From Cryomorpha ignava (GTDB taxonomy: Bacteria > Bacteroidota > Bacteroidia > Flavobacteriales_D > Cryomorphaceae), in assembly GCF_010686655.1 (NCBI RefSeq), contig NZ_JAAGVY010000008.1, positions 1-64,000 of the forward strand: 64,000 nt of DNA. The letters run 5' to 3'. The position numbers and the translations under genes were made by a program. The stretch's first letter is position 1; the number at the start of each line of letters is the position of its first letter. Under the pieces are notes generated by a model. It saw only the letters and a list, made by a program, of their open reading frames with translations, did no database searches and was not told the DNA's origin. Of the stretch, positions 333 through 49,915 are shown in pieces.

Positions 333-348
333 GTTCTTTTTAATGTTT

Positions 349-482
349 GCCAACGGTTAGTATATGAAAAGTAGGCGATTACGAAGCACGAAACTTTCGG
401 GTAAACACAAAATTTGATACGAGCCACAAGCCTTGATTTTATTACTGTTTCGCCTATTTTTTATATACATTGTTGTAGGGCG
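349..482 (-). repeat. attC-like palindromic site A
   Basis: An imperfect palindrome between two minus-strand genes. The arms TATATGAAAAGTAGGCGA (about 361-378) and TCGCCTATTTTTTATATA pair over 18 bases with two mismatches. The outer cores are CCAACGG on the left and TGTTGTAGGGCG at 471-482. Read on the minus strand, the left edge is CTACAACA and the right edge is CCGTTGG, the same YAACA...CGTTR layout as integron attC sites. The right-hand core is repeated in inverted form at 1176-1185 on the far side of the intervening gene. Confidence 0.6.
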
Positions 483-1175: not shown

Positions 1176-1310
1176 GCCCTACAACGGCAAATATAAGAGT
1201 AGTGGGGCATTTCGAAGAACATCTTTTCAATTTACCGTAAAGTTCATTGATTGTATAATGTTCATATTTAGACGTAAAGCCCCATTATCTCTTATATAAT
1301 GTTGTGGTGC
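1176..1310 (-). repeat. attC-like palindromic site B
   Basis: The arms ATATAAGAGTAGTGGGGC (1191-1208) and GCCCCATTATCTCTTATAT (1279-1297) pair almost completely. The outer cores are GCCCTACAAC (1176-1185) and GTTGTGGTGC (1301-1310). The left core matches the right core of site A across the 226-residue gene. The right core matches the left core of site C at 3373-3382. Confidence 0.65.
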
Positions 1311-3372: not shown

Positions 3373-3508
3373 GCACCACAACGTTTTGCGCATATGGCTT
3401 GTGGCGGCTTCCGAAGGTAAATCTTTCATTCCAGGATAATCTCGATCCGAAGATCATGTTTCGAATGTAGGAAAATCCCGCTATAAGCCATATGCAGTGT
3501 TGGTGGTA
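3373..3508 (-). repeat. attC-like palindromic site C
   Basis: The arms GCATATGGCTTGTGGCGG (3390-3407) and CCCGCTATAAGCCATATGC (3477-3495) pair with only two G/A changes. The outer cores are GCACCACAAC (3373-3382) and GTTGGTGGTA (3499-3508). A spacer of about 70 bases separates the arms. The right core recurs in inverted form at 4085-4094, enclosing the 186-residue gene. Confidence 0.65.
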
Positions 3509-4084: not shown

Positions 4085-4150
4085 TACCACCAACGATCAC
4101 TGTAAGGTGCGTATCCCGGAGGGTATGCACTTTACAGAATGTTGGTGGTA
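4085..4150 (-). repeat. attC-like palindromic site D, compact hairpin
   Basis: The shortest site of the left array. The arms CTGTAAGGTGCGTATCC (4100-4116) and GGGTATGCACTTTACAG (4121-4137) pair over 17 bases, with three positions of the G/A or T/C kind and a loop of only a few bases. The outer cores are TACCACCAAC (4085-4094) and GTTGGTGGTA (4141-4150). The units on both sides carry the same core word, so this site is flanked by identical cores. Confidence 0.65.
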
Positions 4151-4683: not shown

Positions 4684-4760
4684 TACCACCAACATCCCTA
4701 TAAACGCAACTTCTCAAATTTCTATATCGTTTATATCGCTTATATAAGCCAGTTAGGATC
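4684..4760 (-). repeat. Array-start site E, attC/attI-like
   Basis: The core TACCACCAAC (4684-4693) matches 4141-4150 across the 168-residue gene. Beyond it lies a weaker palindrome with arms ATAAACG (about 4700-4706) and CGTTTAT (about 4728-4734). On the minus strand the border reads GTTGCGTTTATAGGGAT followed by GTTGG. Nearly the same border stands before the isolated cassette at 49648-49670. The inner edge is ATGTTGG instead of CGTTG as in the internal sites, so this is probably the conserved upstream end of the array. Confidence 0.5.
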
Positions 4761-46023: not shown

Positions 46024-47457
46024 CTATTTATTTATTTTCTTCATATCAAGCGTATTTTTTCCGACTGTATATGCATAAGCTGAAGAAGGTAAAAATTGAA
46101 AATGAACTTCTGCATGTTCCACTTCCCCCTCTTTGCTTATTGAAGTAACAATGGGTGTTTTAATATTATTCTCTTGACAAAATTTGATCAAACTTTTTAA
46201 TTCTTTTGGCTTTTCATAATATCGATCAGACCATTTGATTTCGAGAGCCCAAATAGGCTTCAGTGTATTATCACTCAGCCCCACCATATCCACCTCACCA
46301 TTACTCCATCTAGCATAATACGGCGTAAACCAATCTCTATGCATCCATTGAGCAAATATGGCAGTTTCAACCATATTTCCTATCATTTCATCAGTTGATG
46401 TTATAGGTGTAAATAAGGCGCTCCTTAATGATGGATTAGTCAGGTAAATTTTGAAAAAGTTATCTCGTTTGAATCTTTTTCCGCTTTGATCAATTCGTCT
46501 TACTTGCTTTATTAAAAATGCTGCTTCTAAGTATTCAATATACTTTTTTAATGTGTTTTTAGGTACTTGTGATTGTTTACTCAAGGTCTCAAGCGAAAAT
46601 TCACCGCCACTGTTGTATGCAATGGTTGTAAACAAAGAATATAATTCTCTTGTGTCGCTTATGCCATAGAGACTAGGTAAATCTCTTAGAATAACTTTGT
46701 CTACAATATCTTGCCTAATATATCGCCCCGGGTTTGCTTGAATTTTTTCAGAAAGTATAACTTCCGGATAGCCTCCAAAGTTGATGTAATCTAAAAAATG
46801 CCTATTAAGCTCATCTAAATGAGTTGTAGAATAAAATTCTGTCTGTTTATCATGCCAATTTAGCTTTATAGGCTTAATTAACGTGTCTAAACCTTTTAAA
46901 GATATGAATTCATTGAAAGTAAGGGGAGGAAGTAAAAAATCTGTAAAGCGGCCAGCCCCACTTTCGTTGCTTGCAAACTTTAAGGCAGCTGCAGCAGAAC
47001 CAGATACGATAAACTTATCTTTTCTATAACTATCTACTAATGATTTTAAGTGTACTTCCCAATCTCTACAGTATTGAATTTCATCAAATATTATGTGCCA
47101 ATCAGATTTGTCAGTCAGACCAGTGGCTTGTTTTGAATCAATAAAAAGTTGCTCAAGAGATATGTTGTTATAAATTGGGTTCTCTATGGTTATAAATATT
47201 ATTTTTTTTGGATTTGTCCCGCATTCGATTAATTCTTGAACCATATGATAGAGCATAACCGTTTTTCCAACCCTTCTCGGGCCCATCAATACCACGGCTC
47301 TCCTAATTTCTCTTTCTTTGACTAATGGTTTAAATAGTTCAAAGTACAATCTTCGTGGCATCTCATTGTAGTCAGTCTCAATTTCGCCTTCTATCCACCA
47401 TGGATTTTCAAATCGAATTCGATCCAATATCTGATCTTTAGATATTTCTCTTATCAT
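46024..47457 (-). CDS. AAA+ ATPase with DUF4143 domain
   Basis: 477 residues from ATG 47457. An upstream TTG at 47478 falls inside a TATATTTG promoter-like box and is not preferred. The ATP-binding domain (about 50-190) has VVLMGPRRVGKTVMLY as Walker A and WHIIFDEIQYC as Walker B. A C-terminal DUF4143-type nuclease-like domain follows, with YLEAAFLIKQVRRI, NGEVDMVGL and LEIKWSDRYYEKP, the latter resembling the core of PD-(D/E)XK enzymes. Such genes are scattered, often on accessory DNA; their role is unknown. Confidence 0.88.
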   Translation of the reverse strand: MIREISKDQILDRIRFENPWWIEGEIETDYNEMPRRLYFELFKPLVKEREIRRAVVLMGPRRVGKTVMLYHMVQELIECGTNPKKIIFITIENPIYNNISLEQLFIDSKQATGLTDKSDWHIIFDEIQYCRDWEVHLKSLVDSYRKDKFIVSGSAAAALKFASNESGAGRFTDFLLPPLTFNEFISLKGLDTLIKPIKLNWHDKQTEFYSTTHLDELNRHFLDYINFGGYPEVILSEKIQANPGRYIRQDIVDKVILRDLPSLYGISDTRELYSLFTTIAYNSGGEFSLETLSKQSQVPKNTLKKYIEYLEAAFLIKQVRRIDQSGKRFKRDNFFKIYLTNPSLRSALFTPITSTDEMIGNMVETAIFAQWMHRDWFTPYYARWSNGEVDMVGLSDNTLKPIWALEIKWSDRYYEKPKELKSLIKFCQENNIKTPIVTSISKEGEVEHAEVHFQFLPSSAYAYTVGKNTLDMKKINK

Positions 47458-47590
47458 TTCATTCGTGTTTGATGCCAAATATACGAAATAGAGTCATTTA
47501 AATGATCTTATAATCATATAATATTTGTTTTAAAGAAAAAAGAAGCAAACGGGATTCTTATTTCCCATTCTTTAAGGGGTCTGTATTTCC

Positions 47591-49021
47591 TTATTTGATA
47601 ATAATTTTTTCTGTTACAACGCTATTATCAAATTCAACTTTCAAAAAATATTGGCCACCTGAAATTCCTGAAATATCTAACTGTCTTTCAAATAATTCGA
47701 ATTGTTTTATTCGTTTTCCATTTAAATCAAGTAATGTAATCCGTAGTACCTTAGCATCTCTATTAATAGAAATGTGCAGCAGATCACTCGCAGGGTTTGG
47801 GAAAATATTAATCTGGTTTAGCTGATTAGACAAGTGTGGCGTTGAAAGCACTCCGTTTTCATCAACTTTAAAGGCTACAGCTTGTATGTCTCCTTGTATA
47901 ATGGATGTACCTGTACATATAAATCCATTGTCATTGGTTTTTTTTATATGATGTCCTTCGGCGGCAGTTCCAGAATCGTAGGTGATAAAACGATCCCAAA
48001 CTATATCAAAAGCATTATCTATCTGAATAATTCTATAATTTGATTCAATATCAAAACTCAACATTGTAACTACGTCAAAATCATCTTTATAATATGAATA
48101 AGCCCATTCTCTAATCGTGTTGTCATAATTAAATTCGTAATCATTCAGAAACACCCCATTTGCATCAAGCTCAATAATCAATGGTCTTGCAATCCAATTA
48201 GGTGCATACCACCCACAAACTAAAATATTCCCATTGTTTTTGATGAATACAACTCGACCTTGTCCGCCAAAGTAGTCATAAGTATTATTCCATAATAAGT
48301 TTCCCGTATTGTCCAAGGCAACTGCATATATACCTTCGGGTGTACTTATCGTTGATGTAACTTTCCCAGAAATTATATAGTTGCCATCAGGTGTTTCTGC
48401 CACCGAGTATGCTTGATGCCTAATCGATGGATGTAGTCCATCAGGGTGAGTATATACCCATTCAACGTTACCAAAAGCATCTGTTTTAATAGCATACAAA
48501 GCCTGTGAATTTGCAGACGTAGCAGTATGGTTTGCTCCTACCGAAAGTAAACCGCCTTCTGACGTTTCAACTACTTTTACTAAACCCTGAGCAAAACTCC
48601 CACCGTAGTTATGCTGCCATAGTATATCTCCATCGGTATTTATTTTTGCTAAATAGGCATCCTTATAGTCATTTTGAAACCCATAATCTGATACACCGGC
48701 AATTACAAGATTACCATCCATGGTTTTAATGATGCTATAGAAACTAAGATCTTGGTAAGCTGAATTCGGGTCACTATAATTAATAGACCACAATTCATTT
48801 CCATTTACGTCCATTCTCCTTATTACTGCGTCTCCAACATAGTTTGCAAGCGTATCCTGATATACCTGATTCCCACAACTAATGTAATCACCATTGCTTA
48901 GTTGTGTGATTCCTTCTCCGTAATCACCCTTGCCTATATCTCCATATGTTTTTTTGAAAGAAATTTGTGAGTACGCGCCTTGACTAATAAGCGTTAAACA
49001 AACAATAGCTAAGATTCTCAT
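47591..49021 (-). CDS. Secreted beta-propeller-like repeat protein with type IX sorting domain
   Basis: 476 residues. Signal peptide (ILAIVCLTLISQGAYS, then Q). At least six repeats contain D/N-G-N-(Y/L)-(I/V/L)-(I/S/V)-x-G or similar: LSNGDYISCGNQV, MDGNLVIAGVS, EGGLLSVGAN, PDGNYIISGKV, NNGNILVCGW and DNGFICTGTS, as in propeller domains. The T9SS domain begins INIFPNPASDLLHISI and ends TEKIIIK. Its start codon lies 17 bases beyond palindromic site F (minus strand), so it could be a cassette cargo, but no matching core is found beyond its stop. Confidence 0.85.
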   Translation of the reverse strand: MRILAIVCLTLISQGAYSQISFKKTYGDIGKGDYGEGITQLSNGDYISCGNQVYQDTLANYVGDAVIRRMDVNGNELWSINYSDPNSAYQDLSFYSIIKTMDGNLVIAGVSDYGFQNDYKDAYLAKINTDGDILWQHNYGGSFAQGLVKVVETSEGGLLSVGANHTATSANSQALYAIKTDAFGNVEWVYTHPDGLHPSIRHQAYSVAETPDGNYIISGKVTSTISTPEGIYAVALDNTGNLLWNNTYDYFGGQGRVVFIKNNGNILVCGWYAPNWIARPLIIELDANGVFLNDYEFNYDNTIREWAYSYYKDDFDVVTMLSFDIESNYRIIQIDNAFDIVWDRFITYDSGTAAEGHHIKKTNDNGFICTGTSIIQGDIQAVAFKVDENGVLSTPHLSNQLNQINIFPNPASDLLHISINRDAKVLRITLLDLNGKRIKQFELFERQLDISGISGGQYFLKVEFDNSVVTEKIIIK

Positions 49022-49037
49022 GTCATCTTTTTTTATG

Positions 49038-49170
49038 GTGGGTAACGACTAAGCTAAGAAACGTGCGGCTTAATATCCGATATTCTCTTACCTGAGAGTT
49101 GTTTTAAGTTGAAGGTAATAATCTTCATTTTAAAAGGATCCCGCATGTATTCTTAGGTAATGTTGGGCAC
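49038..49170 (-). repeat. attC-like palindromic site F
   Basis: The arms GCTAAGAAACGTGCGG (about 49053-49068) and CCGCATGTATTCTTAGG (49141-49157) pair with few mismatches. Outer cores are GTGGGTAACG (49038-49047) and TGTTGGGCAC (49161-49170). In the minus-strand direction the site runs from CCCAACA to TCGTTACCCAC. GTTGGGC here agrees with the canonical integron GTTRRRY core, unlike the other sites. Confidence 0.6.
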
Positions 49171-49173
49171 AGC

Positions 49174-49638
49174 TTATTCTTTCTCTTTTCGCGTCAATAC
49201 TATCTGGGTCAGAGTTTCTTTTTTCTTTGGGTCAAATATTGTCAAATTCACTGACGGATAGTCCGTTCGACTCTCATTAAGCTCGAACAAGTATTCTTTA
49301 TTGTTCTGATTCGCTAAACAGACTTTTGCGTTGTATTCAAATCCCGTGGAGTCAACACTAACAATATCTGCTACCCACCTGCAGTAAATGTCGAAGATCA
49401 GAGTATCGGACTCGCGAGTTTTTAAGTCTCCAGCCCCGTATACGAATGTCGCTTGTATCAATTCAGTTCCGACAAACCCCGTGAAGATAAAGTCCAAAGA
49501 GTGGAGCATACCATCTTCTGAGTTCTCGAAGTGAAACTCTTTTCCTATCTCTTTCTCTTCTCTGATTTCCGTATACAGCTGTCCTGTTGCACCAGTGCTT
49601 AGTGTGATTAAAAATATCAGATTTAACAGCTCCTTCAT
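49174..49638 (-). CDS. Hypothetical secreted protein in a cassette-like unit
   Basis: 154 residues. Signal peptide (LLNLIFLITLSTGATG, then Q). The mature domain is beta-rich with VGTELIQATFVYG, DTLIFDIYCRWVAD and EYLFELNESRTDYPSVN. No family is recognised. The unit is bounded by GTTGGGCAC beyond the stop codon (49162-49170) and GTGCCCAAC before the start (49648-49656), with attC-like sites on both sides. The ATG follows CAATAAAAA. Confidence 0.6.
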   Translation of the reverse strand: MKELLNLIFLITLSTGATGQLYTEIREEKEIGKEFHFENSEDGMLHSLDFIFTGFVGTELIQATFVYGAGDLKTRESDTLIFDIYCRWVADIVSVDSTGFEYNAKVCLANQNNKEYLFELNESRTDYPSVNLTIFDPKKKETLTQIVLTRKEKE

Positions 49639-49647
49639 TTTTTATTG

Positions 49648-49690
49648 TGCCCAACATTCCAATAAGCGCAACAGTTGCGTTTATTTCACC
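49648..49690 (-). repeat. Array-start site G, related to site E
   Basis: GTGCCCAAC (49648-49656) followed by ATTCC and a hairpin AATAAGCGCAAC / TTGCGTTTATT (about 49661-49685) with a two-base loop. On the minus strand the border reads GTTGCGCTTATTGGAAT then GTTGG. Site E has GTTGCGTTTATAGGGAT then GTTGG. These two are the only sites with this border. Confidence 0.5.
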
Positions 49691-49915
49691 TATATCCATA
49701 TACTTTCCAAAAGCTTTTTGAAAAGTCTATGATCCATAGAATGTTCTAAATACAAGTATAAGAAATTATAAGACAGGCTATTTAAGCTCTGGCCGATTAT
49801 ATACGAATGTTGCTTCGTACCGTAGGCGTAGAATGGAGTTACACGATTAATTATACGTATAATAATACGTGTAATTTTATTGTACACTTATTAGCAGGCC
49901 TGTTTCGGCTCCCAC
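49691..49915. other. Short gap before aroE
   Basis: About 225 bases, A/T-rich, with TACGTATAATAATACGT-type inverted repeats near 49854-49870. No gene is seen. Confidence 0.4.

Follow-up and report, generated by a model that had tools for sequence, protein, structure and literature searches.

A probable remnant cassette array in Cryomorpha ignava points to a dispersed, integron-like cassette system in Bacteroidota

We analysed a stretch of 64,000 nucleotides of Cryomorpha ignava (contig NZ_JAAGVY010000008.1 of assembly GCF_010686655.1, positions 1 to 64,000), referred to here as the window. A gene at 49174..49638, on the minus strand like all cassettes, arms and sites of the window described below, encodes a 154-residue protein that belongs to no Pfam family and is predicted to be secreted from its signal-peptide-like N-terminus. 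The gene is enclosed by an inverted repeat, AATGTTGGGCACA at 49159-49171 and TGTGCCCAACATT at 49646-49658, with a spacing of 474 nt; the original prediction had the gene bounded by two short sequences, and these arms are real and complementary over 13/13 bp. From the complementarity of the 5' arm (GTTGGGCACA, 49646..49658) and the 3' arm (R'', 49159..49171) that pairs with it, together with the alignment of sites, we infer the boundaries of a cassette of about 609 bp (cassette 1, 49046..49654), running from the TT of the first GTT to the G of the next.

Outside the gene, two palindromic sites, F and G, had been proposed. Both exist, but they are not of the same kind, given that F is an attC-like hairpin and G contains an attI-like site. 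Hairpin F (49037..49171, from R'' to R', with GTT at 49044-49046) is recovered by the attC covariance search that had been proposed as a check, scoring 48.1 bits (E 7e-8) with model R2, which was built without it. Its left arm has one unpaired T, and a fold of the hairpin together with the start of its own cassette gives -23.8 kcal/mol on the top strand and -27.9 kcal/mol on the bottom strand (z -5.4 and -6.8, respectively). The attI-like site in G (49653..49700, end approximate) has inverted boxes AATAAACGCAAC/GTTGCGCTTATT and ends in the GTT (49653-49655) that starts cassette 1. This copy is diverged and has no adjacent recombinase: its core (49653-49672) agrees in 16/20 positions with an attI-like site found behind a recombinase on contigs C75 and C100 of the same genome. 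The window holds 2 attI-like sites, compared with a mean of 0.0 in 40 simulated windows.

The main array spans 1-4.7 kb, and its distance from the focal unit is approximately 45 kb, as originally claimed. It consists of an attI-like site (4691..4745, core 19/20) and attC-like sites at 4085..4150 (R2 64.4 bits), 3373..3508, 1176..1310 (57.5 bits) and 345..481 (65.8 bits). The site at 3373..3508 starts a three-gene cassette that extends to about 1310 and is enclosed by a fourth main-array arm pair, GTTGTGGTGC. A perfect 10-bp GTT/AAC arm pair hugs only 4 of 59 window ORFs, namely the 154-aa gene and three genes of the main array. In control pairs of mismatched genes, runs of 10 occurred in 0.06% of trials, part of these from real arms. 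The focal cassette's own ends agree in 10/10 positions. The only homologue of the 154-aa protein among eight family genomes searched (40%, genome G004) lies inside another cassette array, beside other genes, so the gene does not always keep the same neighbours and the refutation proposed on that ground fails; beyond G004, no homologue was found in a class-wide sample of 395 genomes. The 154-aa gene is confirmed as a gene cassette of the main array's kind, apparently mobilised by a system of integron type.

It was correctly foreseen that the focal unit and the main array are alike in kind, but the unit is not single, given that the neighbouring gene for a T9SS-sorted protein (47591-49021) is itself a cassette (cassette 2, 47583..49045). 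A paralogue of this gene in the same genome (contig C95, L180:2287-3723) has 66% amino acid identity and a common start, GTTACCCACCATAA, and keeps an attC-like site 8 nt past the stop. The window copy matches the C95 copy through CAAATAAGGAAATAC and diverges after it, and the site is gone. A different attC type stands upstream of the C95 copy, as predicted by cassette shuffling, and one cassette type is found behind different sites. By this comparison, the T9SS gene is to be seen not as a fixed neighbour but as a second cassette that has lost its attC. A gene for an AAA_14/DUF4143 ATPase (46024-47478) sits where this attC was lost. We consider it very probable, jointly with the mechanism proposed below, that the focal locus is a small remnant array composed of an attI-like site, the 154-aa cassette, the attC-like site F and the T9SS-protein cassette without attC.

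A comparison with related genomes for an empty site between aroE and the T9SS gene had also been suggested. It did find aroE with other neighbours in four relatives (G001, G003, G004 and G005), in which it is followed by an opposite-strand SAM-hydrolase-like gene and then by PhoH-like and purC-like genes, which we take to be such from their sequences; in G003 and G004 a small ORF lies between aroE and the SAM-hydrolase-like gene. However, none of the four has a clean empty site, because the aroE region has been rearranged in the host genome. An empty site of the G004 array was also sought in the other seven genomes of the family, none of which has a homologue of its flanking gene.

The description of the sites started from an alignment of five attC-like sites of the window and two of G004, which gave a first model, R1, in which the AAC-GTT stem covaries. 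R1 gave F 15.7 bits and missed its proper register. R2 was grown from R1 to 40 sites, with F excluded; in these, 83.7% of cells are paired compared with 60.2% after shuffling, and 177 cells are double-changed compared with 58.5. A search with R2 through 482 kb of host DNA, which was partly chosen for earlier site matches, yields 63 sites, and such counts are lower bounds. In other Bacteroidota, 524 kb of DNA around aroE, taken without selection, gave no match at E <= 1, and across the order, sites at E <= 1e-7 under strict filters are present in 50 of 199 genomes. Several host contigs terminate in or beside attC-like sites, as expected of repeats. The GTTGGGC motif had been read as a canonical integron GTTRRRY, but this fit is coincidental: only 4 of 97 sites fit GTTRRRY, and 8 of 97 fit RYYYAAC. 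Group II intron structures (RF02001 and RF01998) at L134:14959-15219 in G001 and L178:1067-1241 on host contig C71 lie about 100 nt from attC-like sites.

At least 11 attI-like sites are present in the host, including those at 4691 and 49653 in the window and others on contigs C55, C45, C2, C47, C51 and C68. With at least 63 attC-like sites alongside them on many contigs, the capacity for insertion does extend beyond one array, as had been supposed. Contigs C75 and C100 start with a common 230 bp (99.1%), comprising the last 59 codons of a recombinase gene and a site ending in GGTTGCGTTTATACGGATGTT, and diverge exactly at the GTT into different cassettes. Where an attI-like site is followed by a covariance-model site, the arms agree over at least the first 7 nt in 10/10 cases, and an exact 8-nt partner occurs within 3.5 kb in 7/10. 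On contig C68 (L186:1530-2280), one attI-like site is followed by a first cassette with genes for an HTH protein and for a protein that weakly, below the cut-off, resembles Gp49/RelE; this is likely a toxin-antitoxin cassette.

Of the host enzyme, the assembly contains just the last 59 residues: on C75 and C100, an IntI-like tyrosine recombinase gene is present by its 3' end, with attI behind it. Matches to this peptide at E <= 1e-6 occur in 78 of 199 genomes. Relatives carry intact recombinases of ~380 aa with attI and arrays directly downstream, among them G004, from the host's family, in which a 374-aa recombinase (L142:499-1623) has an array behind it. The order is recombinase, attI, array: in ten genomes a GTT about 41-119 bp past the recombinase stop starts the first cassette, with its complement 0.5-3 kb on, and wherever a site is found within 5 kb of a recombinase (8 pairs on 7 contigs), it shares the strand of the recombinase and follows it at 0.76-3.8 kb. 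On the Persicobacter plasmid CP012862.1, a site (58.2 bits) is found about 5 kb downstream of the recombinase. Per genome, the co-occurrence of sites and recombinase is weak to borderline (p 0.05), with both screens insensitive. A remnant at G000:C2:15022-15243 matches only the N-terminal domain of the array recombinase and contains a stop.

The alternative that survives best, although we regard it as improbable, is a canonical integron or CALIN, in which the missing body of the host integrase would include the additional domain typical of IntI, with ordinary attC as sites. The architecture of attI, cassette and attC is common to both, the AAC/GTT borders are kept, and the host's C-terminal 59 residues, with an IntI-like SPLD motif at their end, share half of the compared positions with IntI1 (22/44). 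However, no gene in the host or in the 199 genomes of the order passes the TIGR02249 integron-integrase cut-off. Seven full-length relatives (373-524 aa) were scanned; in every one the TIGR02249 match is split into two stretches by a gap, and six of them pass NF040815 (XerA-type/integron integrase). Compared with IntI1 and IntI2, all full-length Bacteroidota array-type recombinases examined, including that of G004, are without an insertion of ~42 residues, and the KGxKDR-to-RHS distance is 60-61 residues in the Bacteroidota enzymes measured versus 102 with the insertion. This insertion is the additional domain that is named necessary for activity where PMC2426708 cites Messier and Roy 2001, and corresponds to what PMC7790495 calls the I2 helix. 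In a predicted structure (pLDDT 83, pTM 0.51), which matches Xer, XerA and IntI4 folds, no helix occupies its place. In a small tree, IntI1 and IntI2 form a strong clade of their own, the place of which among the Bacteroidota enzymes is weakly supported. The rarity of GTTRRRY among the sites also speaks against a canonical integron, as does a small class 1 integron plasmid, on which R2 has no match.

Clearly less probable is that another enzyme moves the cassettes, be it XerC/XerD, the tandem recombinases of contig C99 or an IS91-type element on C70, with the IntI-like gene as a passenger. Xer proteins are indeed encoded on C6 and C26, and the C70 element stands beside an attC-like site, but the one enzyme that is found repeatedly just upstream of attI and the first cassette, always in one orientation and in many genera, is the SPLD-type recombinase. 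C99 (L086) resembles a recombinase-trio element, with two tyrosine recombinase genes in tandem and a third, short ORF; it was rejected as the missing recombinase body because it has no overlap with C75/C100. On C70, a broken tyrosine recombinase (L083:5293-6356) adjoins an IS91-like transposase-like ORF, and a GC-rich ORF of 793 aa (L083:2752-5133) is unlike the remaining contig and could be an assembly chimera or foreign DNA.

If cassettes move as circles, the own start and end of each must pair, rather than one half of a composite site with the other. We compared 7 variable positions in 48 cassettes from 8 genomes, each lying between neighbouring sites: the own ends of one cassette agree in 5.85/7 positions with a mean exact run of 8.3, whereas the halves of one composite site agree in 2.46/7 and shuffled partners in 2.48 (maximum 3.29 in 20000 shuffles). 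We read this own-end matching as the signature of circular cassettes whose ends would fold together. Hairpins after genes are common in AT-rich genomes and the window has many weak chance repeats, but the idea of ordinary genes with terminators and chance inverted repeats is barely credible given the gene-specific arms, the invariant GTT register and the common attI copies, and is already refuted in practice by the cassette-end test, in which end complementarity falls far outside the shuffles.

The sites also carry a fixed asymmetry. An inner pair is A:C in 61/63 sites and another in 38/63, never C:A, and at arm position 11, A:C is seen in 28/42 cassettes, again never C:A. On the opposite strand these mismatches are G.T wobbles, and when the circle sites are reconstructed, the bottom strand gives the better fold in 39 of 42 (p 5e-8). 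In classical attC, extrahelical bases govern strand choice (PMC2727003), whereas no extrahelical column was identified in our site alignment. Conserved G.T wobbles may mark the strand in place of extrahelical bases.

Taken together, we favour a dispersed integron-like cassette system at a probability of roughly 85%. The enzyme would be a tyrosine recombinase of Bacteroidota, akin to IntI and XerA and encoded just upstream of some attI copies, which would cut at G|TT and excise cassettes in circular form. Circularisation would bring the two ends of a cassette together, and these would fold into a hairpin, presumably of the bottom strand, which the recombinase would insert at the GTT of attI or of another attC. 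Strand choice would be made via the G.T wobbles, with the SPLD-type recombinase as the probable catalyst. For the host, this would mean dozens of swappable cassettes at many places in the genome, the 154-aa gene being one of them.

We lean, with some reserve, towards a wider view in which Bacteroidota have a second widespread integron lineage with an I2-less recombinase and strand marking by G.T wobbles, so that I2 would not be required for folded single-strand recombination. The I2 helix has been described as the innovation that lets integron integrases use folded single strands (PMC7790495). If true, an I2-less cassette system makes that claim testable and shows a route from Xer-like enzymes to single-strand recombination. 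For Bacteroidetes, IntegronFinder 2 reported a single complete integron (PMC9024848), and with sites in a quarter of the order genomes, a large Bacteroidota cassette pool may escape current tools. We found no description of such arrays in Bacteroidota in a literature search that left preprints and most subscription papers outside and is not proof of absence.

Among known systems, XerA-type recombinases (NF040815; PDB 4a8e, 5hxy) give the best profile and PDB matches of the array recombinase, which differs from them in its IntI-like SPLD C-terminus, its N-terminal domain and its linkage to cassette arrays. In the passages of PMC8138268 on an integron-like tyrosine recombinase subgroup, the insertion is called essential for integron function and the members without it come with no described cassette arrays, whereas here arrays are linked. 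By the definition of IntegronFinder 2 (PMC9024848), a CALIN has two or more attC sites and no integrase nearby; with a single attC-like site (F) plus an attI-like site, the focal locus falls outside this definition, and the main array has four attC-like sites. With integrons and CALINs the system shares a tyrosine recombinase gene, attI next to it (on C75/C100 and in relatives), tandem cassettes on the same strand, AAC/GTT borders, hairpin attC with an unpaired spacer and a variable terminal loop (compared with PMC2727003), complementary own cassette ends and group II introns next to sites. It differs in the relatives' recombinases, which are without the additional domain (I2 helix) and have an extra N-terminal domain of ~75 residues, in arms of ~10 bp instead of the 7-bp GTTRRRY core, in fixed A:C (bottom-strand G.T) positions with no conserved extrahelical base seen, and in many dispersed attI copies, with attI located 3' of the recombinase gene. 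Since few sites fit the GTTRRRY core and the relatives' array-linked recombinases lack the additional domain, we do not file it as a canonical integron; judged from sequence, it appears to be a cassette system that works like one.
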